A stretch of DNA of 36,159 nt from Desulfococcus sp. 4484_241 (GTDB lineage Bacteria > Desulfobacterota > Desulfobacteria > Desulfobacterales > Desulfosudaceae), in assembly GCA_002085115.1 (NCBI GenBank), contig MZGQ01000025.1, positions 1 to 36,159 on the forward strand, in the 5' to 3' direction. Below the pieces are notes generated by a model. The model worked only from the letters and a program-made list of their open reading frames with translations. It was not told where the DNA came from and did no database searches. This document shows positions 6,225 through 33,376 of this stretch, piece after piece. The first letter of the stretch is position 1. Each line of letters begins with the position of its first letter. Position numbers and translations under genes: made by a program.

Positions 6225-6739
6225 TATTTCTCTATTCCCGGCCTGGCCGGGACTCCCTTGTCAAAATAATGTTTTACCGGTTTCATCTCGGTGACAAGGT
6301 CTGCCTTGTTTATAACCTCTTGTGGAACGTTGCGCCCCGTAATAACCAGTTCAACAGATTCAGGCTTTAAATCTATCAGCCGAACGATACGGTCTGCCGT
6401 AAAAAGGCCGCAACCGGCGGCAACATTGGCCTCGTCGGCTATTACAACGTCGTATTCACCGGACTGCAGAGCTGTTTCAAGCGCCAAAAGTCCCTCCTCT
6501 GCCGCGGCAATATCCCCAGCCGAAGGTTTGCCGAGGATAAAATGGCCGGTCCCAAACTGACGAACCGTGATCCGGGGTTCAAACGGCTTCAAAGCCGCTA
6601 TTTCGCTGTAATCACCGAATTTCATGAACTGTCCCATATAAACCCTCAGCCCTGCGCCAAAAGCGCGAAGCGCCAACCCAAGGGCTGCTGTGGTTTTACC
6701 CTTTCCGTCACCCGTATAAACCTGAACGTATCCTTTCAT
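6224..6739 (-). CDS. cobO: Corrinoid adenosyltransferase (CobO/BtuR type)
   Basis: This ATP:corrinoid adenosyltransferase puts the 5'-deoxyadenosyl group on Co(I) corrinoid. The protein (171 residues) shows the family P-loop GDGKGKTTAALG starting at residue 10, then MGQFMKFG, DVVIADE and the VELVITGRNVPQEVI block. It is the first gene of the cobalamin operon. The upstream AGCCGGAGGGCAT gives a good ribosome-binding site. I looked for a cobalamin riboswitch in the 283 bases upstream and do not see one, although an unrelated cistron at 35.6 kb has one. Confidence 0.92.
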   Translation of the reverse strand: MKGYVQVYTGDGKGKTTAALGLALRAFGAGLRVYMGQFMKFGDYSEIAALKPFEPRITVRQFGTGHFILGKPSAGDIAAAEEGLLALETALQSGEYDVVIADEANVAAGCGLFTADRIVRLIDLKPESVELVITGRNVPQEVINKADLVTEMKPVKHYFDKGVPARPGIEK

Positions 6740-7022
6740 ATGCCCTCCGGCTGTCCAGTTGCTTACTCAACAGCTACACCTGCCCATATGCTCCCAGGGC
6801 TGCATAACCCGTAAATTCTTTGAATTTTCACCAGAACAAGCAGTCAAAGCCCGGATACACGGCATTTACCATATACCAATCAACCGGCCAAGGCAATCTG
6901 CCAAAAGTGTGGTAAAGGGGGCTGCCTTGATTTCCAAAGAGCCGTGATTATAATCTGATTGTTGATGCTACCGGAAAACGCTTGAAACGTATGATGCAAA
7001 ATAACAGTAATAAGGCAGATGG
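6740..7022. other. Divergent intergenic region, cobO / clpX-like gene
   Basis: This gap of about 280 bases separates the minus-strand cobalamin operon from the plus-strand heme cluster and must hold promoters for both. I see no convincing consensus promoter pair, no riboswitch core and no intrinsic terminator. A 32-codon minus ORF at 6767-6865 lacks a ribosome-binding site. Confidence 0.5.
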
Positions 7023-8825
7023 TTGAATATCATGAAAGCAGGTGACAAACAGGCTCTTGATCCAAAAAAAATAGAAAAAGAGATCAACGAGTTTTTGCAT
7101 GAAAAGTATGGAGATGCCATAAGGCTTGTAACGCCGGTGATGGTCCCCGAGCCCGGGGGCGGGGATAAGGAGGACGGCGGCCGGCCCAAAAGCGGCCGCC
7201 TCCGTTTTGACCTGAAGCCGGAAGAGCTTATAGCCTACCTGGACCAGTATATAATCCGCCAGGACGAAGCCAAAAGGATCATAGCGACCAAGATATGTAC
7301 ACACTTCAACAGGATAACCAAGCAAGGCCTTTGGGATAAAGCAGGCAGGATGGTGGGTGGGATAAAGAACAACATCCTGATGATAGGCCCCACAGGTGTA
7401 GGCAAGACCTACATGATAAAACTCATCGCGAAGAAGCTCGGGGTTCCTTTTGTAAAGGGTGATGCCACAAAGTTCAGTGAAACCGGCTACGTGGGCGGTG
7501 ATGTCGAAGATCTCGTGCGTGATCTTGTAAGAGTGGCTGACAACGATATCGAACTTGCCCAGCATGGTATCGTGTATATCGACGAGATCGACAAGATAGC
7601 CTCCAGCAGAGGCCTTATCGGTCCTGATGTTTCAAGGTCAGGCGTACAGCGGGCGCTTCTTACCCTCATGGAAGAAACAGAGGTGGAGATGCGGGTGCCT
7701 CATGACCCGGTCTCGGTAATGCAGGAGGTTGAATATTTCAGGAAAACAGGGAAAAGAGAAAGACGCACCATAAACACGAAAAACATCCTGTTTATAATGA
7801 GCGGGGCATTCCACGGTATGGAAGAGATAATTTCAAGGCGGCTCTCACAGCAATCCATCGGCTTCGGAGCCAGGGTCTCAGACCGTTCGCAAAACCCGTA
7901 TGAGATAATGAAACATGTCAAGACCGAAGACCTGACCGAGTTCGGATTCGAGGCGGAATTCGTGGGCAGGCTGCCGGTAAGAGCTGTTTTTGAAAGCCTG
8001 ACAGAGGAGGATCTTCTTGCCATATTAAAGAACCCCAGCAACCCCATCATTATTTCGAAGAAGATGGATTTTGCAGCCTACGGCATAGATATAAAATTCG
8101 CACAGGATGCACTTGAGATTATAGCCACACAGGCTGCGGCTGAAAAAACGGGCGCGCGCGGACTTATAAACGCTGTTGAGCGTGCCCTTATAAATTTTGA
8201 AAGCCGACTGCCCTCCATGGGAGCGACCTGTTTTGCGGTAACCTCGTCAGCAATCAAATCTCCCAGGCGTGAACTTGAACGGTTCCTCTCTGATGAGGGG
8301 CTTCACTATGCAGATCAGGTTTTTGAAAAAACGCGCCGTGCCGAAAAATCTGCGGTAAAAACCCATATAATGGAAAACTGCAAAAAGCTGGCAGAAAAAC
8401 ACGGCATACCGTTTACGGATGATTATATAGATGCCCTGGCCGAGTTTGTCACCACCAGGATAACGGATGTTGAAAACGCCTTTGAGACCATCGCATCTTA
8501 CATGGATGAAATCAAAAACATAGAACGTTACTTTGCCGGAAAGTATCAGATTGATGTTGAGCTTTCCAAAGACGCTGTTTGCTATATGGTAAGCCAGTAT
8601 GTTAAGGATGGGTTTGCAAATTTCGGTAAAATATGCGAAGAGCTGACAGACAAATTTATTGACGGTTTCAGGCTTCTTTCGGAAAAAGCCGGTGTCGACC
8701 GGTTCACGATAACACAACAGGCCCTGATGTTCCCTGAAACATGGCTTGAGAACCTTATACGCAGGGCCTTTGAAAAAGAACCGGCGACACGAGGCCAGGG
8801 ACCGGATGATGAAAGCGAGACATAA
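7023..8825 (+). CDS. ClpX-like AAA+ ATPase with long C-terminal extension
   Basis: The 600-residue protein is a HslU/ClpX-family unfoldase. The AAA+ core shows Walker A GPTGVGKT (122-129), the ClpX pore-loop sequence GYVGGDVEDLVR (155-166), Walker B VYIDEID (184-190), EFVGRLPV (312-319) and the sensor-2 GARGLINAVE (377-386). An IGF tripeptide at 279-281 sits at the position of the ClpX loop that docks onto ClpP. It differs from ordinary ClpX in lacking the N-terminal zinc finger and in having about 170 extra C-terminal residues of unknown fold. The stop abuts the ahbC start (TAAATG), so it is probably coupled to the heme operon. The TTG start has AAGG seven bases upstream; an ATG at 7032 is the alternative. 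Confidence 0.85.
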   Translation: MNIMKAGDKQALDPKKIEKEINEFLHEKYGDAIRLVTPVMVPEPGGGDKEDGGRPKSGRLRFDLKPEELIAYLDQYIIRQDEAKRIIATKICTHFNRITKQGLWDKAGRMVGGIKNNILMIGPTGVGKTYMIKLIAKKLGVPFVKGDATKFSETGYVGGDVEDLVRDLVRVADNDIELAQHGIVYIDEIDKIASSRGLIGPDVSRSGVQRALLTLMEETEVEMRVPHDPVSVMQEVEYFRKTGKRERRTINTKNILFIMSGAFHGMEEIISRRLSQQSIGFGARVSDRSQNPYEIMKHVKTEDLTEFGFEAEFVGRLPVRAVFESLTEEDLLAILKNPSNPIIISKKMDFAAYGIDIKFAQDALEIIATQAAAEKTGARGLINAVERALINFESRLPSMGATCFAVTSSAIKSPRRELERFLSDEGLHYADQVFEKTRRAEKSAVKTHIMENCKKLAEKHGIPFTDDYIDALAEFVTTRITDVENAFETIASYMDEIKNIERYFAGKYQIDVELSKDAVCYMVSQYVKDGFANFGKICEELTDKFIDGFRLLSEKAGVDRFTITQQALMFPETWLENLIRRAFEKEPATRGQGPDDESET

Positions 8826-10010
8826 ATGATAGGTATATCAAAACTTTACTGCGGGACCACGGAACCTTCCGACGCCCTTCGCTATGGCAGGCGATCCGAG
8901 GAACTTCCATCCCACCTTCTGCAGTTCTCAATCGACAAGAGGCCGGTAGTCGTGTGGAACATAACCAAACAGTGCAACCTGAAATGCGTTCACTGTTACG
9001 CATACGCAAAAACCAGGCCGGGTGAAAACGAACTTTCCACAGAAGAGGGCAAGGCACTTATAGATGACCTTGCCGACTTCAGGGCGCCGGTAATTCTCTT
9101 CTCGGGTGGTGAGCCGCTGATGCGGCCCGATCTTCCCGAGCTTGCCGCCTATGCGGTAAAAAAGGGGATGAGGGCCGTGATATCCACGAACGGAACTCTC
9201 ATAACAGAGGAAACGGCAAAAGTTCTTAAGGATATCGGTCTTTCATACGTCGGCATAAGCCTTGACGGAGGAAGGGAGATAAACGATCGGTTTCGGGGCG
9301 TCAAAGGCGCTTTTGACGCTGCCCTGGAGGGAATACGGAACTGCCGCAAGGCAGGGATAAAGGTCGGGCTGCGTTTTACCATAAACAGGTCAAATGTAGA
9401 CGAGGTGCCGGTCCTTTTTGACATACTTGAGGAAGAGGATGTCCCGAGAATCTGCTTTTACCACCTCGTCTATGCCGGACGAGGTTCCAAACTCATAAAC
9501 GACGACCTCACACACGAGCAGACACGGCAAACCGTAGACCTTATCATTGACCGGACAAAAGACCTGCACGACAGGGGGCTTGCAAAAGAGGTCCTCACGG
9601 TGGACAACCACGCCGACGGCCCCTACCTTTATCTCAGGCTGCTGCGTGAAGATCCTGACCGGGCAGCGCAGGTGCTTGAACTGCTTAAAATGAACGAGGG
9701 CAACAACTCGGGCCGTGGCATAGGATGCGTAAGCTGGGATGGCGAGGTCTACGCTGACCAGTTCTGGCGGCATTACAGCTTCGGTAACGTCAGGAACAGG
9801 CCGTTTTCAGAGATATGGACCGATACATCAGAACCGCTGATGGAAAAGCTGAAAGATAAAAAGAGATACGTGAAAGGAAGATGCTCAAAATGCAGATGGC
9901 TGGACATATGCGGAGGCAACTTCCGCGTACGCGCCGAAGCAGCCACCGGCGATCTGTGGGCGCCTGACCCTGCATGTTATCTTACTGACGAGGAGATAGG
10001 CATAGCATAA
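8826..10010 (+). CDS. ahbC: AhbC, radical SAM enzyme of the alternative heme pathway (12,18-didecarboxysiroheme deacetylase)
   Basis: AhbC removes the acetate side chains of didecarboxysiroheme to give iron-coproporphyrin III in organisms that make heme from siroheme. The protein opens with MIGISKLYCGT, which is nearly invariant in AhbC. It carries the radical SAM cysteines C50, C54 and C57 (CNLKCVHC), SGGEP, and a C-terminal cysteine region (CSKCRWLDICGGNFRVRAEA) for an auxiliary iron-sulfur cluster. Its 394 residues match AhbC length. The start ATG directly follows the stop of the ClpX-like gene. The assignment rests on recognising the family's N- and C-terminal blocks and on hemB and ahbD next door. 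Confidence 0.92.
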   Translation: MIGISKLYCGTTEPSDALRYGRRSEELPSHLLQFSIDKRPVVVWNITKQCNLKCVHCYAYAKTRPGENELSTEEGKALIDDLADFRAPVILFSGGEPLMRPDLPELAAYAVKKGMRAVISTNGTLITEETAKVLKDIGLSYVGISLDGGREINDRFRGVKGAFDAALEGIRNCRKAGIKVGLRFTINRSNVDEVPVLFDILEEEDVPRICFYHLVYAGRGSKLINDDLTHEQTRQTVDLIIDRTKDLHDRGLAKEVLTVDNHADGPYLYLRLLREDPDRAAQVLELLKMNEGNNSGRGIGCVSWDGEVYADQFWRHYSFGNVRNRPFSEIWTDTSEPLMEKLKDKKRYVKGRCSKCRWLDICGGNFRVRAEAATGDLWAPDPACYLTDEEIGIA

Positions 10011-10042
10011 CCATTAAATTAGCGGCAAAAGGAGTCAACATA

Positions 10043-11014
10043 ATGTTGTTCCCTGATTACAGGCCAAGACGTCTCAGGCGCAATGAAAATCTCAGACGCA
10101 TGATACGCGAAACAAGGCTCTCGGTCGATAACCTTGTTTACCCAATGTTTGCCGTTCCCGGCAAGGGAATAAAGGACCCGATCGCTTCGATGCCGGGGCA
10201 GTATCACCTTTCCACTGACAACCTTGTCCGCGCGGCAAAAGAGGCTGCCGGTCTTGGCATACCCGCGATCATGGTTTTTGGACTGCCGGAGAAAAAGGAT
10301 CCCCTTGGTACCGGGGCTTATGCCAGGGACGGGATCGTACAAAGGGCGGTAAGCGAACTTAAAAGCGCCCTTCCCGATCTTGTGGTCATAACAGATGTCT
10401 GCCTTTGCCAGTACACAGACCATGGGCACTGCGGCCTGCTCGACGGTAACGAGATTGACAACGACTCAACATTGGAGATAATCGCTAAAACAGCCCTGTC
10501 GCACGTAAAAGCCGGAGCGGACATGGTAGCCCCTTCCGACATGATGGATGGAAGGATTGCCGAAATCAGGGAAGTGCTTGATGAAAACGGGTTCACGAAC
10601 ACGCCTGTCATGTCATACGCGGTAAAATACTGCTCATCATATTACGGCCCCTTCAGGGAGGCAGCCGAATCAGCGCCCAGGTTCGGAGACAGGAAAACCT
10701 ACCAGATGGACCCTGCAAACGCTATAGAAGCGATACGCGAGGCAAGCATGGACGTGGAGGAGGGGGCGGACATTATCATGGTAAAGCCTGCGCTCCCATA
10801 CCTCGACATAATAAGAACCATACGTGACGAAATCGACCTTCCTGTCGCTGCCTACAACGTAAGCGGAGAATACTCCATGATCAAGGCCGCCCAAAAAATG
10901 GGGTGGCTTGACGGTGAAAAGGTAATGATGGAAACCCTGCTTGGAATCAGGCGGGCCGGCGCAGATATTATTCTCACCTATTTTGCAATGGAAGCAGCCA
11001 GACTTCTTGGTTAA
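10043..11014 (+). CDS. hemB: Porphobilinogen synthase (delta-aminolevulinate dehydratase)
   Basis: HemB condenses two aminolevulinate molecules into porphobilinogen, the first shared step of siroheme, heme and corrinoid synthesis. The 323-residue protein has the zinc-binding cysteines C120, C122 and C130 (VCLCQYTDHGHC), pointing to the Zn-dependent type. The two Schiff-base lysines are K195 (AVKYCSSYYGPFREA) and K248 (IMVKPALPYLDIIR). AAAGGAG precedes the ATG. It lies between ahbC and ahbD with short gaps, so the three are likely one operon. Confidence 0.96.
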   Translation: MLFPDYRPRRLRRNENLRRMIRETRLSVDNLVYPMFAVPGKGIKDPIASMPGQYHLSTDNLVRAAKEAAGLGIPAIMVFGLPEKKDPLGTGAYARDGIVQRAVSELKSALPDLVVITDVCLCQYTDHGHCGLLDGNEIDNDSTLEIIAKTALSHVKAGADMVAPSDMMDGRIAEIREVLDENGFTNTPVMSYAVKYCSSYYGPFREAAESAPRFGDRKTYQMDPANAIEAIREASMDVEEGADIIMVKPALPYLDIIRTIRDEIDLPVAAYNVSGEYSMIKAAQKMGWLDGEKVMMETLLGIRRAGADIILTYFAMEAARLLG

Positions 11015-11032
11015 GCCATAAAGGCAGGCATT

Positions 11033-12127
11033 ATGTCCCAAAAACATCCCGCAGGAGAGCATAACGGTAAAAAAGCCGAACTTCGGCTTGTAGCATGGGA
11101 GACAACACGCAACTGCAATCTGTCCTGCCGCCACTGCAGGGCATCGGCCACCATGGGGCCATATTCCGGCGAGCTTGACACAGATGCATCTTTCCGCCTG
11201 CTGGACCAGATAGCCGAAACAGGCAGCCCCATCGTCATACTCACCGGGGGCGAGCCGCTGCTTCGGCCCGACATATTCGACATAGCAGCCCATGGCACCT
11301 CAAACGGCCTGAAAATGGTCATGGCACCGAACGGCACGCTGATAACGGAAGAGAGCGCCAAAAAAATGGCGGATGCCGGGATCAGCCGTATCAGCATAAG
11401 CATAGACGGCGCGACAAGGGAGGATCACGACTCGTTCAGGGGAGTGGACGGGGCATACGAGGGCGCCCTGCGCGGGGCGGAACTGGCAAAGGAAGCGGGC
11501 ATCGATTTTCAGATAAACACAACCGTAACCCGTCTGAACATGGAGCAGCTGCCACGCATCATGGCCCTTGCCGAGTCGATCGGTGCGGTTGCCCACCATA
11601 TTTTTCTTCTTGTACCAACCGGCCGCGGCCGGGAAATGGCGGAGCAGGCCATCTCGGCGCAGGACTATGAAAACACGCTCAACTGGTTTTACGACCAGCA
11701 AAAAATATCGTCACTTCAGCTCAAGGCTACCTGTGCTCCCCAGTATTACCGTGTGCTCAGGCAGCGGGCAAGGATGGAGAACATATCCGTTTCATTCAAG
11801 ACCCACGGCCTCGATGCTGTTACCAGGGGATGTCTGGGCGGAGTCTCGTTCTGCTTCATTTCACATGTGGGTATCGTGCAGCCCTGCGGATTTCTGGAAC
11901 TCAACTGCGGGGATGTGACGAGCCAGCATTTTGGCGAAATATGGCGCGACTCTGTCATATTCAACAATCTCCGCAACTACGATATGCTGGGTGGAAAATG
12001 CGGAATATGCGAATACAAGAGGGTCTGCGGCGGTTGCCGGGCAAGAGCCTATGAGGCTACCGGTGACTACCTTGCCGAGGAACCTCTTTGCGTTTACCAG
12101 CCGGCCAAACAGAGCCAACCCCTGTGA
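11033..12127 (+). CDS. ahbD: AhbD, radical SAM heme synthase (Fe-coproporphyrin III decarboxylase)
   Basis: AhbD converts iron-coproporphyrin III to protoheme by oxidative decarboxylation of two propionates. The 364-residue protein has the radical SAM cysteines C28, C32 and C35 (CNLSCRHC), the GGEPLLRPD motif, SISIDGA, and a cysteine-rich C-terminus (CGICEYKRVCGGCRARAYEATGDY) that holds an auxiliary iron-sulfur cluster. It is 18 bases after hemB. A related family such as NirJ is conceivable, but the ahbC neighbour and the short N-terminus before the SAM motif favour AhbD. The electron acceptor in vivo is not evident; the GlcF-like gene downstream is a candidate. Confidence 0.88.
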   Translation: MSQKHPAGEHNGKKAELRLVAWETTRNCNLSCRHCRASATMGPYSGELDTDASFRLLDQIAETGSPIVILTGGEPLLRPDIFDIAAHGTSNGLKMVMAPNGTLITEESAKKMADAGISRISISIDGATREDHDSFRGVDGAYEGALRGAELAKEAGIDFQINTTVTRLNMEQLPRIMALAESIGAVAHHIFLLVPTGRGREMAEQAISAQDYENTLNWFYDQQKISSLQLKATCAPQYYRVLRQRARMENISVSFKTHGLDAVTRGCLGGVSFCFISHVGIVQPCGFLELNCGDVTSQHFGEIWRDSVIFNNLRNYDMLGGKCGICEYKRVCGGCRARAYEATGDYLAEEPLCVYQPAKQSQPL

Positions 12128-12136
12128 CTGGATATC

Positions 12137-13465
12137 ATGAAAAAGCTCACCGAGCTTGCCCGGCTCGTTTCACAGCTTGAAGAACTTACGTCGGCCTGCA
12201 AAAAATGCGGGGCATGCCAGTCCGTGTGCCCGATTTTTGAACAGACCGGCATGGAAAAGGACTTTGCCCGCGGAAAAATAGCCGTTCTTGACGGAGTGAT
12301 GGAACAGGTTGTCTCAAACTCCGGCGCAGTGCTCCAGCGCCTTGACAACTGCCTTCTTTGTGGCTCCTGCCAAACCGTATGCCCGAACAGGGTGGAAAGC
12401 CTGAGAATTTTCTTTTCTGCAAAAAAGATCCTTGCCAACTACAAGGGGTTGTCGCCTGCAAAAAAATTTTTGTTCAGACAGATTCTTGCAAAACCGTATG
12501 TGTTTAACAGTGTCCTGTCCATTGGTTCGCTGATGCAGGGGCTTGTTCTGAAAAAACAGGGGGCTGCTCCCGGCACAAGAGCCCCCCGGTTCCCGGCATC
12601 CCTGATACTCGAAGGACGGCACGTGCCTCCGCTTGCACAGGTGCCGTTTCACAAACAAAAAACCGCCGAAAGCCTGAAAATCGGCCTGCCTGTGGAAAAC
12701 TCCTCCCGCGATACAAAACGCGCCCTTTTTTTTACAGGATGCCTGATTGACAAGATTTTTCCCGATATTGCAAAAACATCTGTTGAAGTCCTGAAAGCCC
12801 GGGGTTTTACACCTGTTATACTTGAAGATGAGTGCTGCTGCGGCATCCCGGCCCTTTCTTCCGGGGACCATGAGGCGTTTACTCAAATGGTGCGCCACAA
12901 CCTTGCACAAATGTCGAAGCTCCGGTTCGATATTCTTGTTACCGCCTGCGCGACATGCGCCTTTACAATAAAAAAAGCGTGGCCGATGATGTGGGATAAA
13001 GCTGACAGCGATTATGAAAAAATAGAAGCTGTTGCCAATAAAACGGCAGATATTACACAACTGCTTGGGGGGCCGCTTGTTAACAAAAAAACAGTTTCAA
13101 ATCAAAATGCCGTCCCGGTGACATACCATGATCCATGCCACCTGAAAAAATCGCTTGGCGTTTCAGAGGAGCCAAGAGCGCTTATCAATGCAAACCCCGA
13201 TTGCAGGCTGGTGGAAATGGCGGCGCCGGATGCCTGCTGCGGCATGGGCGGAGGTTTCGGTGTTACACACCTGCAAATGTCGGCCGCAATCGGCGCTTCC
13301 AAGCTGCAAAGTATCCTTGACACAGGCTCAAAAATAGTGGCAACCACCTGCCCCGCCTGCATGATCCAGATCGCAGGCCTGCTGTCAAAAGCCGGTCACA
13401 AAGATATCTCGGTTTGCCACGTGATTGAACTATACGCAAAAGCAGCCCCTTTTGATGTGGTTTAA
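12137..13465 (+). CDS. GlcF/LutA-like iron-sulfur protein with two CCG domains
   Basis: The N-terminus (442-residue protein) holds two 4Fe-4S ferredoxin motifs, C21/C24/C27/C31 (CKKCGACQSVCP) and C72/C75/C78/C82 (CLLCGSCQTVCP). Two CCG domains of the HdrB/GlcF type follow, one with ECCCGIPALSSGD near 232-244 and one with ACCGMGGGFG near 365. This is the layout of GlpC and GlcF subunits that move electrons from a flavin dehydrogenase, yet no dehydrogenase subunit is adjacent. It starts 10 bases after ahbD and likely belongs to the heme operon. Accepting electrons from AhbD is plausible but is inference. Confidence 0.85.
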   Translation: MKKLTELARLVSQLEELTSACKKCGACQSVCPIFEQTGMEKDFARGKIAVLDGVMEQVVSNSGAVLQRLDNCLLCGSCQTVCPNRVESLRIFFSAKKILANYKGLSPAKKFLFRQILAKPYVFNSVLSIGSLMQGLVLKKQGAAPGTRAPRFPASLILEGRHVPPLAQVPFHKQKTAESLKIGLPVENSSRDTKRALFFTGCLIDKIFPDIAKTSVEVLKARGFTPVILEDECCCGIPALSSGDHEAFTQMVRHNLAQMSKLRFDILVTACATCAFTIKKAWPMMWDKADSDYEKIEAVANKTADITQLLGGPLVNKKTVSNQNAVPVTYHDPCHLKKSLGVSEEPRALINANPDCRLVEMAAPDACCGMGGGFGVTHLQMSAAIGASKLQSILDTGSKIVATTCPACMIQIAGLLSKAGHKDISVCHVIELYAKAAPFDVV

Positions 13466-15968: not shown

Positions 15969-16577
15969 ATGACGGTATCCGCCATTGAGGTTGCTCCGGA
16001 TTCTGTTTCATCCCTGCTCTCGGAGGTGATGGAACGGTCCGGTCAAAACCTTCTTGCCTGCTACCAATGCAGGCGTTGTGCCGGGGCATGCTCTGTAGGT
16101 GACGAAACAGGATTTTTCACACCTGACCGACTTATTCGAACCATCCTCATCGGTGACCGAACGGCTGCACTTAACAATGAACTGGTCTGGAAATGCGTTT
16201 CATGCTACACCTGCGGCATCCGCTGCCCCAACGGCATACAGACCGGAAGAATCACCGAGACCCTTAAAAAAATGGCCAAGGAGGCCCACATCGATTCACC
16301 ATATCCCAAAATGGTCCATTTCCACGATTCGTTCGTGCAATCCGGACTGCGCTGGGGCCGGGTTAATGAAACCGAATTCATGGCGTCATATGAGCTCAAA
16401 AACAGTTTGTCTCTGTTAAAGCAAATGGACTTTAGGAGTGTTGCCGATGAAATATCGCGCCAGATAAAACTGGCTCTTTCGATGTTAAAGTTACGGCGCA
16501 TGCATTTCGGGTTCCTCTCTGCAAAGGGACGCAACGAGATAAAACGGCTTCACAAACAATTCAAAAACAAACACTGA
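15969..16577 (+). CDS. hdrC: HdrC-like heterodisulfide reductase subunit
   Basis: HdrC (202 residues) carries two 4Fe-4S clusters that wire HdrA to HdrB. The cysteine sets are C31/C34/C37/C41 (CYQCRRCAGAC) and C76/C79/C82/C86 (CVSCYTCGIRCP), with the DRLIRTIL segment between them as in methanogen HdrC. AGGAGCTTAAAAC precedes the ATG. It is the first gene of the operon and ends 11 bases before the hdrB start. In bacteria such subunits do not reduce CoM-S-S-CoB; here the partner genes point to methylene-tetrahydrofolate reduction. Confidence 0.92.
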   Translation: MTVSAIEVAPDSVSSLLSEVMERSGQNLLACYQCRRCAGACSVGDETGFFTPDRLIRTILIGDRTAALNNELVWKCVSCYTCGIRCPNGIQTGRITETLKKMAKEAHIDSPYPKMVHFHDSFVQSGLRWGRVNETEFMASYELKNSLSLLKQMDFRSVADEISRQIKLALSMLKLRRMHFGFLSAKGRNEIKRLHKQFKNKH

Positions 16578-16588
16578 TGAGGTCCACA

Positions 16589-17476
16589 ATGGAACTGGCC
16601 TATTACCCGGGCTGCTCGCTCAAACAATCCTCCTCCCTGTACGATCGCCAGATGCGGCTTGTCATGGAGAGGCTGGGAGTGACTTTGAAAGAGCTGGATG
16701 ACTGGAACTGCTGCGGCGCAACCTCGGCAGGGAAAACAGACGATTTTCTGTCCATAGCCATGCCGGCGCGCAACCTTGGCATAGCAGCCGGTTCCGGACA
16801 AAGCGAGCTTGTTATCCCGTGCTCGGCATGCTACTCCAGGACCCTGGTTGCAAAACATTACCTGGAGGCTGACAGGGAAATCAAAGAGACCATAAATCTC
16901 GGGCTGTCTAAAAAAATCGTCTCAGATGTAAAAGTGTTGTCGATTCTCGAGGTGCTGCTTGGCCTTATAGAATCGGGAGAACTTGCCAGGCAGCTTGTTT
17001 TTAAACCCAAGGGGCTCAGGCCCGCCTGCTATTACGGCTGCATGCTCACCCGCTTTCCATTCCCCGTGCCGGTGCCCGACGACGTTGAAAACCCCCGCGG
17101 AATGGAACGCATTCTGGAGGCCATGGACCTTCACCCGCTGGAATGGAACTGCAAGACAAGCTGTTGCGGGGCGTCATCTGCAGTTACAGACCCGGAAGTA
17201 TCTTATGGACTTATGGCCAAAATAATAAGGGATGCCCTTGCCCGCGGTGCAAACTGCCTTGTCACGACCTGCCCGATGTGCCAGATGAACCTTGACGCCT
17301 ACCAGGATGAAGTCTGCGCCAAACATGGTATCAGCGAACGTCTGCCAACATATTTCATAACCGAAATCGTTGGAGTGGCAATGGGTATGGGAATAAAACC
17401 CCTTGAAATAGACAGGCACTTCGTGGATGGAACAAAACTCTTGGAGGAGCTGGAAAGATATGAGTCAGAACAGTAA
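16589..17476 (+). CDS. hdrB: HdrB-like heterodisulfide reductase subunit
   Basis: HdrB (295 residues) contains two CCG domains that in methanogens bind non-cubane 4Fe-4S clusters and carry out disulfide reduction. Visible cysteine groups are C9 (YYPGCSLK), C41-C42 (DWNCCGATSA), C78/C81 (CSACYSR), C192-C193 (KTSCCGASSA) and a late CPMCQMN. All are present, so the clusters can form. The chosen ATG has GAGG six bases upstream; an ATG four codons earlier overlaps the hdrC stop but lacks such a site. The 3' end overlaps hdrA by 17 bases. Confidence 0.92.
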   Translation: MELAYYPGCSLKQSSSLYDRQMRLVMERLGVTLKELDDWNCCGATSAGKTDDFLSIAMPARNLGIAAGSGQSELVIPCSACYSRTLVAKHYLEADREIKETINLGLSKKIVSDVKVLSILEVLLGLIESGELARQLVFKPKGLRPACYYGCMLTRFPFPVPVPDDVENPRGMERILEAMDLHPLEWNCKTSCCGASSAVTDPEVSYGLMAKIIRDALARGANCLVTTCPMCQMNLDAYQDEVCAKHGISERLPTYFITEIVGVAMGMGIKPLEIDRHFVDGTKLLEELERYESEQ

Positions 17477-20468
17477 TCTGTCCGGTTCGGTCATGATCGT
17501 TGGAGGCGGTATCGGCGGAATGCAGGCCGCTCTTGATCTTGCAGACAGCGGTTTCAAGGTGCACATGGTTCAAAAGGATTCTTCCCTGGGCGGCACCATG
17601 GTGATGCTGGATAAAACCTTCCCGACCGGCGACTGTTCCATGTGCATGATCTCTCCAAAGATGGTGGAGATCGGAAGACACCCCAACATAGAGATCCACA
17701 CGCTGGCCGAAGTTACCGGGATAAACGGAGAACCGGGCCGCTTCAAAGTGATGGTAAAGCTTCAGCCAAGGTATGTTGACCCTGACAAATGCACAGGCTG
17801 CGGGGTCTGCGAGAAGAAATGCCCAAAGCTGGTCACCAGCGAATTCGAGCAGGGGCTCACCAAGAGAAAGGCTATTTACTCCCTGCTGGCCCAGGCTGTC
17901 CCAAACACCCGGGTAATAGACAGTGACAACTGCTTGTTTTTTCAGCGCGGCAGATGCAAGGCGTGCGAGAAATTCTGCACCGCCGGCGCCATTAACTTCG
18001 AAGACACGGGAAAAGAGATCGAGATCACCGTTGGCTCTGTAATCCTGTCACCGGGCCTGGCCCGCTATGACGCCACACGCCATCAGGAGCTTGGTCTCGG
18101 CCGCTGGCCAAACGTGGTCTCGTCCATACAGTTTGAACGGATACTTTCAGCTTCCGGCCCTTTCTCAGGAGAAATACTGCGGCCGGGCGATAAAAGGCAT
18201 CCCCGTAAAATTGCGTGGATACAATGCGTAGGGTCCCGTGACACCAATCACGGCAACCCCTGGTGCTCGTCGGTCTGTTGTATGTACGCGACAAAGCAGG
18301 CGATTATTGCAAGAGAACACGACTCTTCAATCGAACCGACCATCTTCTACATGGAGCTGCGGGCGTTTGGCAAGGATTTTGACAAGTATGTTGACCGGGC
18401 CAAAAATCAGTATGGCGTCCGCTACCACAGGGCCATGGTATCTGCAGTACATGAGGAAGCTGGTACAGGCAATCTTATCCTGAGATATGCCGACACAGAC
18501 GGCACTCTCGTTGATGAGATGTTTGACATGGTGGTTCTGTCAGTAGGACTTGAACCGCACCGGGATGCAATTGAACTTGCAAAAACTTTCGCCATCGAAC
18601 CGAACCGGTACGGCTTTGCCAAAACAGGCGCCTTTACCCCTGTGGATACCACCAGGCCGGGTATTTTTGTCACCGGCACATACCAGGGACCCAAGGATAT
18701 TCCGGAAACCGTGACCCAGGGCAGTGCGGTTGCAGGCAAGGCCATGGCGTTGCTGGGCGAGGCTCGGGGCAGTGAAATAGTAAAAAAGGAGTTGCCTCCT
18801 GAAACCGACGTGGGCGATGCCGAAGCCAGAATAGGAGTTCTGGTCTGCCACTGCGGCATAAACATTGCCCAGACGGTGAATATAGAAGAGGTGGTTGAAG
18901 CAGCAAAGGGTCTTCCGAACGTGGTGTATGCGGCAGACCTTATGTACGCGTGCTCACAGGACAGCCAGCAGACCATAAAAGACCTGGTGCGGGAGCACAA
19001 CCTCAACCGCGTGGTTGTGGCTTCCTGTACACCCCGTACCCATCAGCCACTGTTCCAGGAAACCATACGCGACGCAGGCCTGAACAAATACCTGTTCGAA
19101 CTTGCGGATATAAGGGAGCAGTGCGCATGGTGCCACATGGGACAAAACAAGGAGGCCACGGCAAAGGCTATTGACATAGTTAAAATGGTCGTTGCAAAAG
19201 TGAAAAGGTTCGAGCCTGTCCATACCGACTCTGTGCCGGTAACACACGGAGCTATGGTGATAGGAGGTGGTGTTGCCGGCATGACTGCGGCACTTGCGCT
19301 TGGCGACCAGGGGTACGATGTCCATATCGTTGAAAAAACAGACACACTGGGCGGACTTGCCAAAAATGTGTACAGGACCCTGGATGGAAGTGATGTTCAG
19401 GCATTTCTTGCCAAACAGATAGAAAAAATCCTGAACCATCCCCGAATAACCGTACATACCGGCGTGGAAATCAAGAGTACCGACGGTTTTGTCGGTAACT
19501 TTAACACCACGCTCTCAGATGGCTCATCGTTCGCCCATGGCGCAATCATAGTTGCCACCGGAGGCGTTGAATATGAACCCACGGAATATTGCTACGGGCA
19601 AAGCGACGCCATTATGACCCAGCGACAACTGGAAAGACTCCTGGAAACCGAAACGTTTGAGCCGGCGGCCTCGTTTGCAATGATCCAGTGCGTGGGCTCC
19701 CGTGAGGAACCCTTCAACTACTGCTCGAGAATTTGCTGCCAGGACGCAATAAAAAACGCCATCGCCATAAAAGAGAAATATCCGAACGCATCTGTGACCA
19801 TATTCTACAGGGACATACGCACCTACGGCCTGAGAGAAGACTACTACAGAAAAGCCAGGGAACTTGGAGTGCTTTTCGTAAGGTTCGAGCCGGACCGCAA
19901 GCCAGAGGTAACCGTCACCAGCGGGAAGCCGGCCATACGCGCCTTTGATTATATTCTCGGCAGGGATATAATCGTACGCGCCGATTATCTTGCCCTTTCC
20001 ACGGGGCTGCGTCCCCACCCATCGACCGAGGATATTGGTAAACTCTACAAGCTTACCCGCAACCCGGACGGATATCTTCTTGAGGCTCACGTTAAACTTC
20101 GGCCGGTTGATTTTCCGAGTGAGGGAATATTCGTAGCCGGTCTGGCACATGCTCCAAAGAACCTTGACGAAACCATAAGCCAGGCCCTTGCCGCTTCAGG
20201 CCGTGCCGGGGTTCTTCTTTCCCGCGACAGGCTCGATGTTTCAGGTATAATCGCAAAGCACAACAGGGACATATGCATGTCCTGTCTTGCCTGTTTCCGT
20301 GTATGCCCGTTTGACTCTCCGTTTATCGATGAAGACGGACGGATCAGCCATAACGAGGTCAAATGCATGGGATGCGGCATCTGTGCCGGCATATGCCCGG
20401 CCAAGGCATTCCAGGTAAACAATTTCAGGGATGACCAGATTATAGCCATGATAGACGCAATAACCTGA
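17460..20468 (+). CDS. hdrA: HdrA-like flavoprotein with two tandem HdrA modules
   Basis: HdrA is the FAD subunit that handles electron input and possible bifurcation. This 1002-residue version is a head-to-tail double. Module one has the FAD fingerprint VGGGIGG (14-20), a 4Fe-4S set CTGCGVCEKKCP (111-122), further cysteines at 158-173, and CVGSRD at 256-261. Module two begins with the canonical HdrA start VLVCHCGINIA (460-470), then a second FAD fingerprint GGGVAGM (602-608), CVGSRE (744-749), and a C-terminal two-cluster ferredoxin (CMSCLACFRVCP from 939 and CMGCGICAGICP at 969-980). The start is the ATG inside the hdrB end, after GGAGG/GGAAAG. The N-terminal half also resembles QmoA-type flavoproteins. 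Confidence 0.9.
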   Translation: MSQNSNLSGSVMIVGGGIGGMQAALDLADSGFKVHMVQKDSSLGGTMVMLDKTFPTGDCSMCMISPKMVEIGRHPNIEIHTLAEVTGINGEPGRFKVMVKLQPRYVDPDKCTGCGVCEKKCPKLVTSEFEQGLTKRKAIYSLLAQAVPNTRVIDSDNCLFFQRGRCKACEKFCTAGAINFEDTGKEIEITVGSVILSPGLARYDATRHQELGLGRWPNVVSSIQFERILSASGPFSGEILRPGDKRHPRKIAWIQCVGSRDTNHGNPWCSSVCCMYATKQAIIAREHDSSIEPTIFYMELRAFGKDFDKYVDRAKNQYGVRYHRAMVSAVHEEAGTGNLILRYADTDGTLVDEMFDMVVLSVGLEPHRDAIELAKTFAIEPNRYGFAKTGAFTPVDTTRPGIFVTGTYQGPKDIPETVTQGSAVAGKAMALLGEARGSEIVKKELPPETDVGDAEARIGVLVCHCGINIAQTVNIEEVVEAAKGLPNVVYAADLMYACSQDSQQTIKDLVREHNLNRVVVASCTPRTHQPLFQETIRDAGLNKYLFELADIREQCAWCHMGQNKEATAKAIDIVKMVVAKVKRFEPVHTDSVPVTHGAMVIGGGVAGMTAALALGDQGYDVHIVEKTDTLGGLAKNVYRTLDGSDVQAFLAKQIEKILNHPRITVHTGVEIKSTDGFVGNFNTTLSDGSSFAHGAIIVATGGVEYEPTEYCYGQSDAIMTQRQLERLLETETFEPAASFAMIQCVGSREEPFNYCSRICCQDAIKNAIAIKEKYPNASVTIFYRDIRTYGLREDYYRKARELGVLFVRFEPDRKPEVTVTSGKPAIRAFDYILGRDIIVRADYLALSTGLRPHPSTEDIGKLYKLTRNPDGYLLEAHVKLRPVDFPSEGIFVAGLAHAPKNLDETISQALAASGRAGVLLSRDRLDVSGIIAKHNRDICMSCLACFRVCPFDSPFIDEDGRISHNEVKCMGCGICAGICPAKAFQVNNFRDDQIIAMIDAIT

Positions 20469-20511
20469 TTTGAGCAACTTATCTATTCGGTAACAAGAGA
20501 GGACTGCCTAA

Positions 20512-21027
20512 ATGAGCCATCAGCAGACAACAAGGGTCAAAAAGGAGGAGGAAAACAAGGCGGCCCCGGTGGAAAAACCGGTTGTGCCACCGCCGGGATG
20601 GGAACCAAACATACTCGCCATCGCTTGCCACTACTGCGCCTTTGCGGCAGCCGATCTCGCGGGAGTCATGCGCCTGTCATACCCTCCTAATGTGAAGGTC
20701 ATACGCCTGCCATGCACGGGCAAGCTTGATCATTTTTACGTACTGCGCGCACTTGAGCGGGGGATTGACGGCGTTTTCGTGGCCGGGTGACTGGAGGGCC
20801 AGTGCCATTTCCTGGATGGAAATACAAACGCTAAAAAAAGAATAGAATATTTAAAGAAGCTTATCGTGAAGGTTGGCATAGACCCTTCACGCATCGAGAT
20901 GTATAATCTGTCTGCCGCAATGGGACCCCGGTGGGCCGAGATATGCACCGAGTTTACTGAACGGATCCGTCAGCTTGGGCCATCGCCCGTATGGCTGGCG
21001 GAGCATAATCACCACGAAAAGGAGTAA
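20512..21027 (+). CDS. mvhD: MvhD-like iron-sulfur subunit, probable selenoprotein (in-frame TGA = Sec93)
   Basis: MvhD (2Fe-2S) links HdrA to its electron partner. The frame opens at 20512 and meets TGA at 20788-20790 after residue 92, then continues in the same frame to TAA at 21025-21027 with clear MvhD sequence on both sides: ...GVFVAG-[TGA]-LEGQCHFLDGN... In the family this position is the Cys of GCLEGQCH. Sec93 gives a 171-residue protein of normal MvhD length, whereas stopping at 92 would lose over 45 percent of the domain. A possible bacterial SECIS hairpin follows the TGA. A nonsense mutation or sequencing error is the alternative, but the replaced residue being a cysteine argues for selenocysteine. 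MvhD- and HdrA-type proteins include known selenoproteins. selA, selB, selC and selD are not in this window. Confidence 0.88.
20791..20823 (+). promoter_or_regulatory. Candidate bacterial SECIS element for the mvhD TGA
   Basis: Directly downstream of the TGA, ATTTCC (20807-20812) pairs perfectly with GGAAAT (20818-20823) around a TGGAT loop. The loop lies about 22 bases from the TGA, in the range used by SelB-dependent bacterial elements. A competing, weaker stem is CCAG (20799-20802) with CTGG (20812-20815). The structure was judged by eye only. Confidence 0.5.
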
Positions 21028-21032
21028 TCACC

Positions 21033-21701
21033 ATGATTGTAGGGGAGCAGAAACCTCTGGAAGAGATATGGGAGATGGTCAAGCCCTATAAGAAGGTGCT
21101 CGTGTTCGGATGTAATACATGCGTTGCCGTATGCCATTCCGGAGGGAACAAGGAGGCCGAAATCCTGGCATCCCTTCTTCGGATAAAGGCAAAGCAGGAA
21201 CAGGTGGAGATGGAGATAAAAAACTCAGGCATAGAGAGGCAGTGCGAGCATGAGTTCTACGAGCCTGTTACAGAAGAGCTGAACTGGGCTGACCTTGTAC
21301 TGTCAACCGCCTGCGGCGTTGGGGTGCAGTTCACGGCTGAAAAGTTGGCCACAACCCCCGTGTTCCCGGCATTGAACACCACCTTCATGGGCGCTGTAGA
21401 CGCGCCCGGAGTTTTCACGGAACGGTGCCAGGGATGCGGTCAGTGCATACTTGCGATCACGGGAGGTATATGCCCGGTGTCAAGGTGCGCCAAGCGTCTT
21501 TTAAATGGTCCTTGCGGAGGATCCTCAAACGGCAAGTGTGAAATAAACAAGGATGTGGACTGTGCGTGGCAGTTGATAGTGGACCGGTTGGCGGCCCTGG
21601 GCAGGCTGGACGACTATGAAAAACTCACACCTATCAAGGACTGGTCCAATGAACGTTCAGGCGGACCCAGAAAAATGGTCAGGGAGGATTTGCAGCAATG
21701 A
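21033..21701 (+). CDS. metV: MetV-like methylene-tetrahydrofolate reductase C-terminal domain protein
   Basis: The 222-residue protein belongs to the MTHFR C-terminal (zinc-binding/iron-sulfur) family that forms the MetV partner of MetF in acetogens. It is cysteine-rich: FGCNTCVAVCHSGG near residues 25-38, STACGVG mid-protein, and a dense C-terminal set (CQGCGQCI...GGICPVSRCAK...GPCGGSSNGKCEI...DC). AAGGAG lies eight bases upstream of the ATG, five bases after the mvhD stop. The stop overlaps the metF ATG (ATGA). In Moorella-type complexes MetV docks MetF to HdrABC-MvhD; the same is inferred here from gene order. Confidence 0.9.
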   Translation: MIVGEQKPLEEIWEMVKPYKKVLVFGCNTCVAVCHSGGNKEAEILASLLRIKAKQEQVEMEIKNSGIERQCEHEFYEPVTEELNWADLVLSTACGVGVQFTAEKLATTPVFPALNTTFMGAVDAPGVFTERCQGCGQCILAITGGICPVSRCAKRLLNGPCGGSSNGKCEINKDVDCAWQLIVDRLAALGRLDDYEKLTPIKDWSNERSGGPRKMVREDLQQ

Positions 21702-22627
21702 GCGAAAAAACACCCAGCAAGCTGGAAAAAATTCTTCGCCAGGGGCACCTCGCGGTGACATCCGAATGTGGACCTCCGAGAGGCAGCGATCCCGAAGTGA
21801 TCAGGGAAAAGGCAGAAATGATAAAGGACTATGTCGATGCGATTAACATAACCGACAACCAGACAGCCATGACCCGTATGTGCAGCCTGGCATCCTGTAT
21901 CCACCTCAAGCTTATGGGGCTTGAACCTGTTCTCCAGATGGTTACCCGCGACAGGAACCGCATAGCCATGCAGAGTGACATCCTGGGAGCTGCATCATTT
22001 GATATATACAACATATTATGCCTTTCCGGCGACCACCAGAGTTTTGGTGATTGCCCGACGGGCCAGAACGTTCATGACATAGACTCCATGCAGCTTATAC
22101 AGACCGTCAGGCTGATGCGCGATGAGGGTAAATTCCTCGGCGGCGATGAAATCGCAAGACCCCCCAGGATGTTCGTCGGTGCAGCCGCAAACCCGTTTGC
22201 CGATCCATTTGAAATAAGGGTCCCAAGGCTGGCTAAAAAAGTGGCTGCCGGCGTCGAGTTTATCCAGACCCAGTGCATATACAATCTTGACCGGTTCGAG
22301 GAGTGGATGAAAAGGATCAGGGACAGGGGGCTCCATGAAAAGGTTTTTATCCTGGCCGGCCTGACCCCGATGAAATCCGCCGGCATGGCCAGATATATGA
22401 AAAACCGTGTGCCTGGTATGGACGTCCCGGATGAAATAGTAAAGCGGCTTTCCGACACGCCCAAAGAGAAACAGGCCGAGGAGGGAATAAAAATCTGTAT
22501 TGAATCTATCCAGAGGCTGAAAGAGGTAGAGGGCGTAAGCGGCTTTCATATAATGGCAATCGAGTGGGAAGAAAAGGTCCCTGAAATCGTCAGGCAGGCA
22601 GGCCTGTACCCCAGGCCGAGCCTTTAA
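21698..22627 (+). CDS. metF: 5,10-Methylenetetrahydrofolate reductase (MetF)
   Basis: MetF reduces methylene- to methyl-tetrahydrofolate with FAD. The 309-residue TIM-barrel protein has the N-terminal TSECGPPRG, AINITDNQTAMTRMCSLA, LSGDHQSFG and AAANPFADP blocks, and GVEFIQTQCIYN in the second half. These match the short MetF of bacteria with a Wood-Ljungdahl pathway, not the longer eukaryotic enzyme. It overlaps metV by four bases, so the two are likely translated together. In either direction (CO2 fixation or acetate oxidation) this is the C1 step served by the Hdr electron module. Confidence 0.94.
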   Translation: MSEKTPSKLEKILRQGHLAVTSECGPPRGSDPEVIREKAEMIKDYVDAINITDNQTAMTRMCSLASCIHLKLMGLEPVLQMVTRDRNRIAMQSDILGAASFDIYNILCLSGDHQSFGDCPTGQNVHDIDSMQLIQTVRLMRDEGKFLGGDEIARPPRMFVGAAANPFADPFEIRVPRLAKKVAAGVEFIQTQCIYNLDRFEEWMKRIRDRGLHEKVFILAGLTPMKSAGMARYMKNRVPGMDVPDEIVKRLSDTPKEKQAEEGIKICIESIQRLKEVEGVSGFHIMAIEWEEKVPEIVRQAGLYPRPSL

Positions 22628-22645: not shown

Positions 22646-23737
22646 ATGAAGACCTTTCAAGACCTGATTGAAGAGGTTCAGAAACCGGGCCTGTGCCACC
22701 ACTGCGGCGGGTGTGTTACTTTCTGCACATCGATAAACTATGGAGCCCTTGAGCTTGACGAAAACGGCATGCCCCGCTTTGGAGACCGGGACAAGTGTAT
22801 CGAGTGCGGACTTTGTTACTCAATATGTCCAGAGATAAACGAGCTGGACGAAGAAACAAAAAAAATGGTCTCCTGGGAACCGCCTATAGGCAGGGTAATC
22901 GAACTGACTGCAGCCAGGGCAATGGATCCGGCCATCCGGGCGAAGGCCACTGACGGCGGAGCTGTCACGGCGATCCTTCTTCACCTGTTTGATACGGGCC
23001 GCATAGACGGCGCTATCGTGACCAGGCAAACCGGCCTGCTGAACAGAGAGCCGCACCTGGCAATGACAAGGGAGGATATTATCGAGTCGGCAGGTTTTTT
23101 CCTCGGCACATCCCACGGAATAAAACATTTCGGCCATGACTACTCGACATATTCCCCTTCTGTCCAGGAGTTCCGCCCCGTTATGGAAAAAGGCCTTAGC
23201 CGTATTGCCCTGGTGGGGACACCCTGCCAGATAGAGGCGGTAAGAAAAATAGAGGTGCTCGGTATTGTACCTTCCGACTCGATAAAATTCTGCCTGGGCC
23301 TGTTTTGCTCCGGCAACTTCACGTTTGACGAAGATGAGAAAAAACAGCTCGAAAAGATCGGCGGGTTCAGCTGGGATGCGGTAAAAAAAATAAACATAAA
23401 AGAAAACTTCATGGTGTATCTCAGTGACCAAAGCGTAATATCCATTCCGCTTGAAAAGATCGATTTCATGAAACGGTTTGCCTGCCGGTTCTGCATGGAC
23501 TATTCAGCTGAATATTCAGATATATCATTCGGGGGAATAGGCGCAAAAGAGGGCTGGACCACCGTGATCACCCGAACCCCGCTGGGCAGGGCTGTTCTTG
23601 CTGATGCCAGGGGAAAAACCATTGAAACAGCATCGGCTGATGGTTTAAAAGCGTCCTCCCGGAATACGATTAAAACCGTTGCAGCCGCCTCAAAACAAAA
23701 AAGGGAGGCGGCAAAGAAAAAACGCGAAAAGTTGTGA
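22646..23737 (+). CDS. FrhB/FdhB-like (coenzyme F420 hydrogenase/dehydrogenase beta-type) protein
   Basis: The N-terminus holds two 4Fe-4S motifs, C17/C20/C23/C27 (CHHCGGCVTFC) and C51/C54/C57/C61 (CIECGLCYSICP). The rest of the 363-residue protein is the FrhB_FdhB flavin domain, with DGGAVTAILLHLFDTG, ALVGTPCQIEAVRKIE, FCLGLFCSGNF and CRFCMDYSAEYSDISFGGIGA. Family members exchange electrons between FAD, iron-sulfur clusters and F420, ferredoxin or NAD(P)H. The ribosome-binding site is GGGGAGG. It follows metF by 18 bases and is probably a further electron entry for the Hdr-Met complex; the electron donor is not deducible. The lysine-rich end (KKKREKL) is unremarkable. Confidence 0.85.
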   Translation: MKTFQDLIEEVQKPGLCHHCGGCVTFCTSINYGALELDENGMPRFGDRDKCIECGLCYSICPEINELDEETKKMVSWEPPIGRVIELTAARAMDPAIRAKATDGGAVTAILLHLFDTGRIDGAIVTRQTGLLNREPHLAMTREDIIESAGFFLGTSHGIKHFGHDYSTYSPSVQEFRPVMEKGLSRIALVGTPCQIEAVRKIEVLGIVPSDSIKFCLGLFCSGNFTFDEDEKKQLEKIGGFSWDAVKKINIKENFMVYLSDQSVISIPLEKIDFMKRFACRFCMDYSAEYSDISFGGIGAKEGWTTVITRTPLGRAVLADARGKTIETASADGLKASSRNTIKTVAAASKQKREAAKKKREKL

Positions 23738-30646: not shown

Positions 30647-33376
30647 CTATCCGGTAAGCCGTCCGTAAATTTTCAGCAGCCTGTCCGGCAGTTCACGCAC
30701 ATCGGAAATAACGGTGTGGCTTACCTTGCCATAAACATTGTCAAGAGCCCTGTCGCCCGGTATATTCACCGTTATGGTATGAACCGCTATTCTCTCGGCA
30801 CGGGCTTCCAACAATGCCCGACGCGTATCCTCTATTGCCCGTTCCCTTTTGTAACCTATGTCATTGGGGAATCCATCGGTAACTATAATAAGCAGCCTGG
30901 AAACCGCGGGCACATCCCTGAGTTTTGCCGTAGCGTGTCTCACGGCTGCCCCCATTCTCGTGTTGCGCTGGGGGGAGAGCCAGCCGATACAACGCCTGGT
31001 CTCATCATTCATGAAATCATCAAACTCTTTTATAACAAAATAATCAACCCCCAGGCGCCCCGACCCTGAAAAGCCGGCGATTGAGTACAAATCGCCGACA
31101 ACGTCAAGAGCCTCGCAAAAAAGAACGGCGGCCTCCTTTTCAACATCGAGCACCGTGGTATCACCAGACCCTGCCACATAATTTGAAGTTGATCGGGAAA
31201 CATCGATAAGAAGCATGACAGCTACGTCACGCACCTGTTTCAAACGTTTTATGTATATTCTTTCAGAAGGAGTCAATCCGCATCTTCTGTCAACGACAAA
31301 ATCTATGAGCTGCCGGTAATCAAAATCATCACCCTCACGCCATTTTCTTAAAACAGCCATCCCCTGAGGTTTTAAAAGCTCAAATGCGTAGCGGATCCTC
31401 TTAACAAGCCCCCTGTGCCTCTCTAACACTGTTTCGTAAAACATGTTATCGCCTTCGACCGCCTTGTTCTCACGCACGAGAACATAATCATCAAGATAAT
31501 CACCTATGGTGTTGTCCCATTCCCGATAACGGAAAGCAGACCCGGCAAACGGTGAATAGACGGGAGGCTGCTCGTAACACTCACTGAACTCATCCAATCC
31601 CATTGCCGAAAGATCGGGCGCATCCCCCCCTCCTTCCAGGGGCCCGCCGCCATCCCTGACAACTCTTGTTATGTCATCGGAGTTAAGCGCCCCTCCCCGT
31701 TCGGCCAGATGTTTAAGCAGATCGGTCTTGTATACCCTGTAACCCGCTTTTTCGATTTTCTCCTTGACCCTGGAAGCCAGCTGCTCATATTTTCCGAAAG
31801 CACTGGCAAAGAGGGCTGGACGCACGCGAAGCCCGTAAGGCATTCTTTCAGTAGTATACGTTTCCACGCCGTTGCAAAAATTATGACCAAGACGGTCAAA
31901 AACAGCCGATACAGCCATTGCGCTTGCCTCGGGAAACCTTTTCCCGGCCGCATGGCGGTAAAACAGGTCCCGGATTGTATTAAACGTATCGAGCCCGGCA
32001 CCGTCGATAAAAGCCGCCGGCTCCGCGCCAAGGGCAATGACTGCACAGAGGTTGTACATAAACGTTCCGCCGGCGCTGATTCCTTTTACAAGATGTGAAT
32101 AGAACCTGCGGGCTCCGCCGGGGTAGGACTCCTCAAGCAGGGTTTTTACCCTGCCATACTCGATTATGGAAAAAAGGTCGGCCGCAAGCAGGGGGACAGG
32201 GAACAGGCTGAAAAACCTTTCCATGTCAGGGCCACCCTTGTCTGTCCGGCTGTTTTTTAACAGCCCTTTGCAATATTCCAAAGCCCTCTCAAAATCGAAA
32301 TCAAACGTACCGAACTCAAAAAGGCCCGCCTCTATCCACGCCAGCGCCTTATAGACCAGCTGATTGTCCCTGCGATACGGATAAACAGCCACCTCGTCTG
32401 CAAGATATACGCTACGGCCATCATAACAGGCGATAACCGAGTCGGTGTCACTTCCGAGCAGCCCTCCGGGAATGGAGGATACAGGCTTTACCGATATGCG
32501 TCTCCCGGTGCGTGCCTGTATATAACGGGAAACACCCTGCTGCATTTCGGCAAAAACAGCGGTGGAACGCAGCCTGTCACAAGCCTCTATGCCGGCTCTT
32601 GATTCCAGGCATAAAAACCTTTCACCAGCCGTCTTGTCACGCGCATACATCTCAAGGCCCATGTCGACAAACTTTTCAAGATCTCTTCTGGATAAAAACG
32701 AAAGTTCTCCGGCAAGTGCATCCGCGAAACTGCAGGCAAGATCGAAATCGAGAGCGGCGACCCTTCGCAATTGTTCTATGGTCCAGGCCCTTCCGGCCGG
32801 CTTGACAGAAACAACCATACCTGGAATTTGGCCGGCAAATCTCCTGTACTGATTATATGTAAGGTCGTGAGAGAACAGGTCATGTAGCAGGTCCATGTAG
32901 GCCAGCCCGGCATCCAGACTGCCATCGGCTATAAGTGTTGTAACCACCTCCAGGGGCTCCGCTGCTATGGCATAAAGCCATTTGTGCCTTAGCATGGCAA
33001 TGGTGTCCAGAAATTTTCGAACAAAAGGTCTGTCACCGTTAATAATGACGTGGCTGAGTGTACCTGCCATTATCCTGCCAAGACTTGGGCCCTCCTTCAT
33101 GGCATCCCGCACAGCGGTGCTGTATTGTTCCATTGCTTCCGTATTTGCGCCGGCTTTTGCAAGTGCCATATATCCGTTGGCAACGGTCTTGCCCAACCTT
33201 GGCTCCAGTGACAGGCCATACACGACATCCTCTGCCATTGTTTCAAGTATCTTGCAGGGCAGATCACTGCCTATATCGGAAAGGCCTGCTTCTATATATT
33301 CCGCAATTTCAGGATCGGCGATATATAGCGTCTCCATGAAATGTCGCTTGTTGTCTGTTTTGTTCTCCTGTTTCAT
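30647..33376 (-). CDS. NorD/CbbO-like von Willebrand factor A domain protein
   Basis: The 909-residue protein ends in a VWA domain with an intact metal-ion (MIDAS) site: DVSRST at 725-730, TRMG near 805, and TDGFPND near 833. The last segment (RELPDRLLKIYGRLTG) is the NorD/CbbO style of ending. The long N-terminal part is mostly helical and without catalytic motifs. NorD and CbbO work with MoxR-type AAA+ partners (NorQ, CbbQ) to activate metalloenzymes such as NO reductase or Rubisco. No such ATPase gene is adjacent here, so the partner and target are unknown. GGGAAAC precedes the ATG. Confidence 0.85.
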   Translation of the reverse strand: MKQENKTDNKRHFMETLYIADPEIAEYIEAGLSDIGSDLPCKILETMAEDVVYGLSLEPRLGKTVANGYMALAKAGANTEAMEQYSTAVRDAMKEGPSLGRIMAGTLSHVIINGDRPFVRKFLDTIAMLRHKWLYAIAAEPLEVVTTLIADGSLDAGLAYMDLLHDLFSHDLTYNQYRRFAGQIPGMVVSVKPAGRAWTIEQLRRVAALDFDLACSFADALAGELSFLSRRDLEKFVDMGLEMYARDKTAGERFLCLESRAGIEACDRLRSTAVFAEMQQGVSRYIQARTGRRISVKPVSSIPGGLLGSDTDSVIACYDGRSVYLADEVAVYPYRRDNQLVYKALAWIEAGLFEFGTFDFDFERALEYCKGLLKNSRTDKGGPDMERFFSLFPVPLLAADLFSIIEYGRVKTLLEESYPGGARRFYSHLVKGISAGGTFMYNLCAVIALGAEPAAFIDGAGLDTFNTIRDLFYRHAAGKRFPEASAMAVSAVFDRLGHNFCNGVETYTTERMPYGLRVRPALFASAFGKYEQLASRVKEKIEKAGYRVYKTDLLKHLAERGGALNSDDITRVVRDGGGPLEGGGDAPDLSAMGLDEFSECYEQPPVYSPFAGSAFRYREWDNTIGDYLDDYVLVRENKAVEGDNMFYETVLERHRGLVKRIRYAFELLKPQGMAVLRKWREGDDFDYRQLIDFVVDRRCGLTPSERIYIKRLKQVRDVAVMLLIDVSRSTSNYVAGSGDTTVLDVEKEAAVLFCEALDVVGDLYSIAGFSGSGRLGVDYFVIKEFDDFMNDETRRCIGWLSPQRNTRMGAAVRHATAKLRDVPAVSRLLIIVTDGFPNDIGYKRERAIEDTRRALLEARAERIAVHTITVNIPGDRALDNVYGKVSHTVISDVRELPDRLLKIYGRLTG

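Follow-up and report, generated by a model that had tools for sequence, protein, structure and literature searches.

The closest described counterparts of the locus analysed here are the Hdr-type methylenetetrahydrofolate reductase gene sets of Moorella thermoacetica and Sporomusa ovata, which encode HdrCBA, MvhD and MetVF (PMC9430772); in Sporomusa, HdrA, HdrB and MetF are pulled down by MvhD (PMC9430772). In a methanogen complex, the single [2Fe-2S] cluster of MvhD is close enough to HdrA for electron transfer (PMC5861303). Selenocysteine (Sec) is itself known in proteins of this family. It was reported in MvhD of Desulfobacterium autotrophicum in 2009 (PMC2702500) and in that of Desulfococcus multivorans (PMC5109826); the initial annotation of our locus had called it known for some methanogens and deltaproteobacteria. 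The family motif of the Sec-containing MvhD, FrhD and VhuD proteins, which are found in methanogens, Asgard archaea and sulfate reducers and go with a hydrogenase or a formate dehydrogenase, is given as CxxU (review PMC13188914).

Our window, by which we mean the whole stretch of 36,159 nucleotides that was analysed, comes from Desulfococcus sp. 4484_241 (G000 below), a draft MAG of 128 contigs that is 87% complete. It carries hdrC, hdrB, hdrA, mvhD, metV and metF in a co-linear run, the Hdr-type gene set, in the order found in Sporomusa (Table 1). Two features set it apart from the Moorella and Sporomusa loci: an FrhB-like gene follows metF, an adjacency shared by part of the Sec-MvhD clade described below, and its MvhD has a predicted Sec, whereas the literature examined on both acetogens makes no mention of Sec in their MvhD. 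With respect to the known Sec-containing MvhD, FrhD and VhuD proteins, to whose family it belongs, our protein differs in that its gene is tied to metVF, and in that the Sec lies in the second cysteine motif while CxxC keeps a plain Cys. The Hdr subunits are named by resemblance because their scores fall short of the curated thresholds set for the archaeal equivalog models; the hdrA-like protein has two nucleotide-disulfide oxidoreductase regions (Pfam/NCBIfam). Away from the cluster, a 909-residue open reading frame on the minus strand (30647-33376) has no Pfam match at E 1e-10.

Table 1. Coordinates of the features of the hdr-mvhD-metVF locus, numbered from the first letter of the window.
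Feature	Position	Strand	Evidence or remark
hdrC-like, 4Fe-4S dicluster protein	15969..16577	+	Pfam/NCBIfam
hdrB-like, CCG domain protein	16577..17476	+	Pfam/NCBIfam
hdrA-like, listed with 1013 aa (start possibly further downstream)	17427..20468	+	Pfam/NCBIfam
mvhD/flpD selenoprotein gene	20512..21027	+	171 codons, one internal TGA; Pfam FlpD match and orthologues with same TGA
in-frame TGA, predicted Sec93	20788..20790	+	first Cys of G-C-x2-G-x-C motif; TGA in 80/80 named relatives
SECIS hairpin ATTTCC-TGGAT-GGAAAT	20807..20823	+	folding; complete stem in 80/82 distinct Sec genes
metV (DUF5981, MTHFR C-terminal partner)	21033..21701	+	PF12225 E=3e-38
metF (methylenetetrahydrofolate reductase)	21698..22627	+	PF02219 E=5e-35
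FrhB/FdhB-like iron-sulfur flavoprotein	22646..23737	+	PF04432/PF04422

The mvhD frame is broken by a single TGA, and the family sequence goes on beyond it without a shift. Translated with TGA as U, the gene gives 171 residues before a TAA stop, with U93 within GULEGQCH. Residues 34-156 cover positions 1-123 of the 123-position FlpD profile (PF02662, E=1.8e-46), and since this match extends over the full profile across the TGA, the reading frame continues past it, as the initial annotation had claimed. Its placement of the TGA at the first cysteine of GCLEGQCH also holds: in alignments residue 93 corresponds to the first, conserved Cys of G-C-x2-G-x-C in relatives and in solved MvhD and VhuD chains (matches to the MvhD chains reach E values down to 2e-40). 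Could the TGA nevertheless be a true stop, leaving a 92-residue N-terminal product or two separate pieces? Nothing but the stop codon itself speaks for this, and we consider it extremely unlikely, because the FlpD domain spans the TGA, the homologues with Cys are single chains, and termination would cost two of the five conserved Cys positions. The mechanical list of open reading frames does contain the 92-residue part alone, which is the stub that plain gene calling had been expected to yield, and ordinary calling may cut MvhD short in many genomes from these bacteria. The other FlpD copies in the genome, two on contig C44 and one fused on C107, are all without an internal stop.

Strong evidence for a functional codon comes from comparison with relatives. 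Peptide patterns that leave out the Sec codon, applied to a single genome from each GTDB species, found 177 relatives, of which we examined the best 80. For those 80, all named and drawn from Desulfobacterota and Nitrospirota, with type strains and complete chromosomes included, the homologous codon is TGA without exception; in three with the variant motif GU-x2-E-x-C it was confirmed by eye. Whole genomes of the same order agree, in that the best matches in G002, G012, G041, G015, G019 and G040 contain exactly one TGA each, at the homologous codon. A tree built from 107 FlpD proteins places the window and the relatives' loci in a clade with support 100/100, in which Sec occupies the site in 80 of 80 rows. 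A draft MAG in so many contigs invites the suspicion that mvhD is a pseudogene disabled by mutation, or that its TGA was misread in sequencing. However, the same TGA recurs in independent genomes of two phyla, complete chromosomes among them, and the protein is conserved on both sides of it, which leaves that explanation practically no chance. The initial annotation had raised the prospect of a TGA confined to this assembly, with an ordinary TGT or TGC in close relatives; the close relatives carry TGA.

The gene context is conserved as well, with metV near mvhD in all 80 relatives and metF in 73 of them. Because the closest relatives examined share the TGA without exception, we regard this known selenoprotein family as a standard part of the folate-pathway redox cluster; selenium use in MvhD thereby reaches into the Hdr-type methylenetetrahydrofolate reductase cluster, and does so in two phyla. 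One locus we count against a MetVF-linked explanation: the nearest relative, G002 (L055, G002:C1:1372000-1391000), has hdrCBA-mvhD(Sec) without metV or metF within 19 kb. The initial annotation had called Sec in a MetVF-linked MvhD notable, and this stands in part: we found no report of it in the open-access literature, where absence is no proof, but it is not peculiar to this genome, being the rule in a large clade.

A hairpin downstream of the TGA had also been proposed, and its position is borne out: it has a 6-bp stem and a 5-nt loop, and 16 nt separate the stem from the TGA. By itself the window hairpin is weak, with z between -0.3 and -1.4 in single-sequence folding and P of about 0.18 given the protein and the codon usage, and we rejected such folding as proof of a SECIS element since it is not significant. 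The significance of the predicted element comes from conservation, not from the window sequence alone. Of 82 distinct Sec genes, 80 keep all six pairs, as against one of 24 homologues in which the site is Cys, counts that come from related sequences and are not independent events; when the Sec genes are reshuffled among synonymous codons, complete stems number 12.3 of 82 on average and 21 at most. At the fourth pair, 58 of the 82 have T-A and 24 have A-T, a compensatory change in which a Phe-to-Tyr codon change on one side is accompanied by a synonymous change of a Gly codon on the other. Nearly all Sec genes have TGGAA as the loop. An Rfam search of 20000-21500 gave no match, and a CTGG/CCAG helix directly 3' of the TGA was discarded as an element, not being conserved. 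One MvhD with Cys at the site (L035) retains a nearly complete hairpin, likely a relic of a recent change from Sec to Cys.

Does the organism have the means to insert Sec? The initial annotation had proposed a search for selA, selB, selC and selD, and three of the four are present in G000: C71 encodes SelA (524 bits), C117 encodes a SelD (382.7 bits) whose gene likewise contains an in-frame TGA, and C61 carries a canonical tRNA-Sec that has G73. The genome is thus not one devoid of sel genes. The fourth, selB, was not found in this 87%-complete genome, either by family search or with the SelB of G002 as query, the matches being other translation GTPases. We count this against the Sec reading, but given that level of completeness we take it for an assembly gap; SelB is present in all five relatives checked.

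The one serious rival to Sec is cysteine, inserted at the UGA either throughout or when selenium is scarce by a selC*-type tRNA-Cys(UCA) acting with SelB or SelB*. A review (PMC7609411, citing Mukai 2017) describes selC* tRNA-Cys(UCA) as having U73 and a 12-bp acceptor-plus-T helix, with selB* next to it in Desulfobacterales and Syntrophobacterales. G000 has a second UCA-anticodon tRNA (C71:26142-26238; L003 1501-1597) with both of these traits, which rule it out as a duplicate tRNA-Sec, and G002 has a close relative of it (L160), likewise with U73 and the 12-bp helix. Both differ from the selC*/SelB* system in that they have G1:C72 and in that no selB* was found, beside the tRNA or elsewhere, in the draft G000 or the complete G002. 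We therefore say that the second tRNA resembles selC*, and do not class it as a member. In G012, G015 and G019 the likeness to the described system is closer, a UCA tRNA with A1:U72 and U73 adjoining a second selB. From its sequence features, then, the organism may possess a tRNA that can insert Cys at UGA, and in this the tRNAs of G000 and G002 and the selB-adjoining tRNAs of the other three genomes favour cysteine decoding. The Sec route genes selA and selD and the canonical tRNA-Sec of G000 argue against it, as do the lack of selB* in complete G002 and two drafts, G040 and G041, in which MvhD has the TGA and we saw no other UCA tRNA; we judge it quite unlikely. Slightly less so, if still improbable, is dual decoding, in which tRNA-Sec would supply Sec when selenium is available and the selC*-like tRNA-Cys(UCA) would supply Cys when it is not. 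Were this true, the folate-pathway redox complex would have a built-in response to selenium limitation.

Some observations adjoin this question. The second UCA tRNA of G000 lies about 5.4 kb upstream of selA. A cysteine synthase-CysRS fusion of about 770 aa occurs in addition to a normal CysRS in G000 (L182, C25), G002 (L183) and G012 (L181); being this fusion, the second CysRS of G000 was rejected as a possible CysRS*. In G015 (L169, contig C31, approximately 6336-12791) a compact run on one strand comprises hdrA, flpD(Cys), a HesB-like gene, the UCA tRNA and the second selB, an arrangement that suggests a link of the selC*/selB* pair to Hdr genes in that genome.

Sec at residue 93 of a MetVF-linked MvhD, as first proposed for this locus, is supported as the best reading. 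The gene very probably specifies a Sec-containing MvhD, the predicted [2Fe-2S] carrier of an HdrCBA-MvhD-MetVF assembly, made by read-through that would depend on SelB and the hairpin. SelB would bind the hairpin just 3' of the UGA and deliver Sec-tRNA-Sec, and the ribosome would read through to yield the full-length protein. Sec would take the place of the first Cys of G-C-x2-G-x-C, one of the five conserved Cys positions, and would most probably lie at or beside the [2Fe-2S] cluster, which it might adjust or protect while MvhD carries electrons. Homology predicts that the protein connects HdrA with either MetVF or the FrhB-like subunit, and electrons would pass between HdrA and one of these partners. 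Formation of such a complex, with methylenetetrahydrofolate reductase activity, would be expected from the Sporomusa and Moorella work. That selenium tunes the electron link of HdrA, as the initial annotation had it, is plausible.

Residue 93 is one of two places at which bacterial MvhDs of the same gene context put Sec. In four more distant MvhDs adjoining metV and metF (L065, L066, L067 and L068), the TGA stands at the second Cys of CxxC, and the position equivalent to residue 93 is a plain Cys. A different conserved SECIS-like stretch, close to GGACCTGGCAGGTTCC, follows the TGA in these genes. None of the 107 bacterial sequences has Sec at both positions. The solved chain 9sfi_K has a non-standard residue (X) at both motif positions, one of them that of residue 93, so that one of its two sites is shared with our protein; that each X is Sec is our reading, and it fits with the "2" listed for the selenocysteine MvhD family (PMC13188914). 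The alternation of Sec between the two motifs suggests that both may belong to one site. With Sec in either motif, it becomes testable whether the two positions play the same role at the [2Fe-2S] site.
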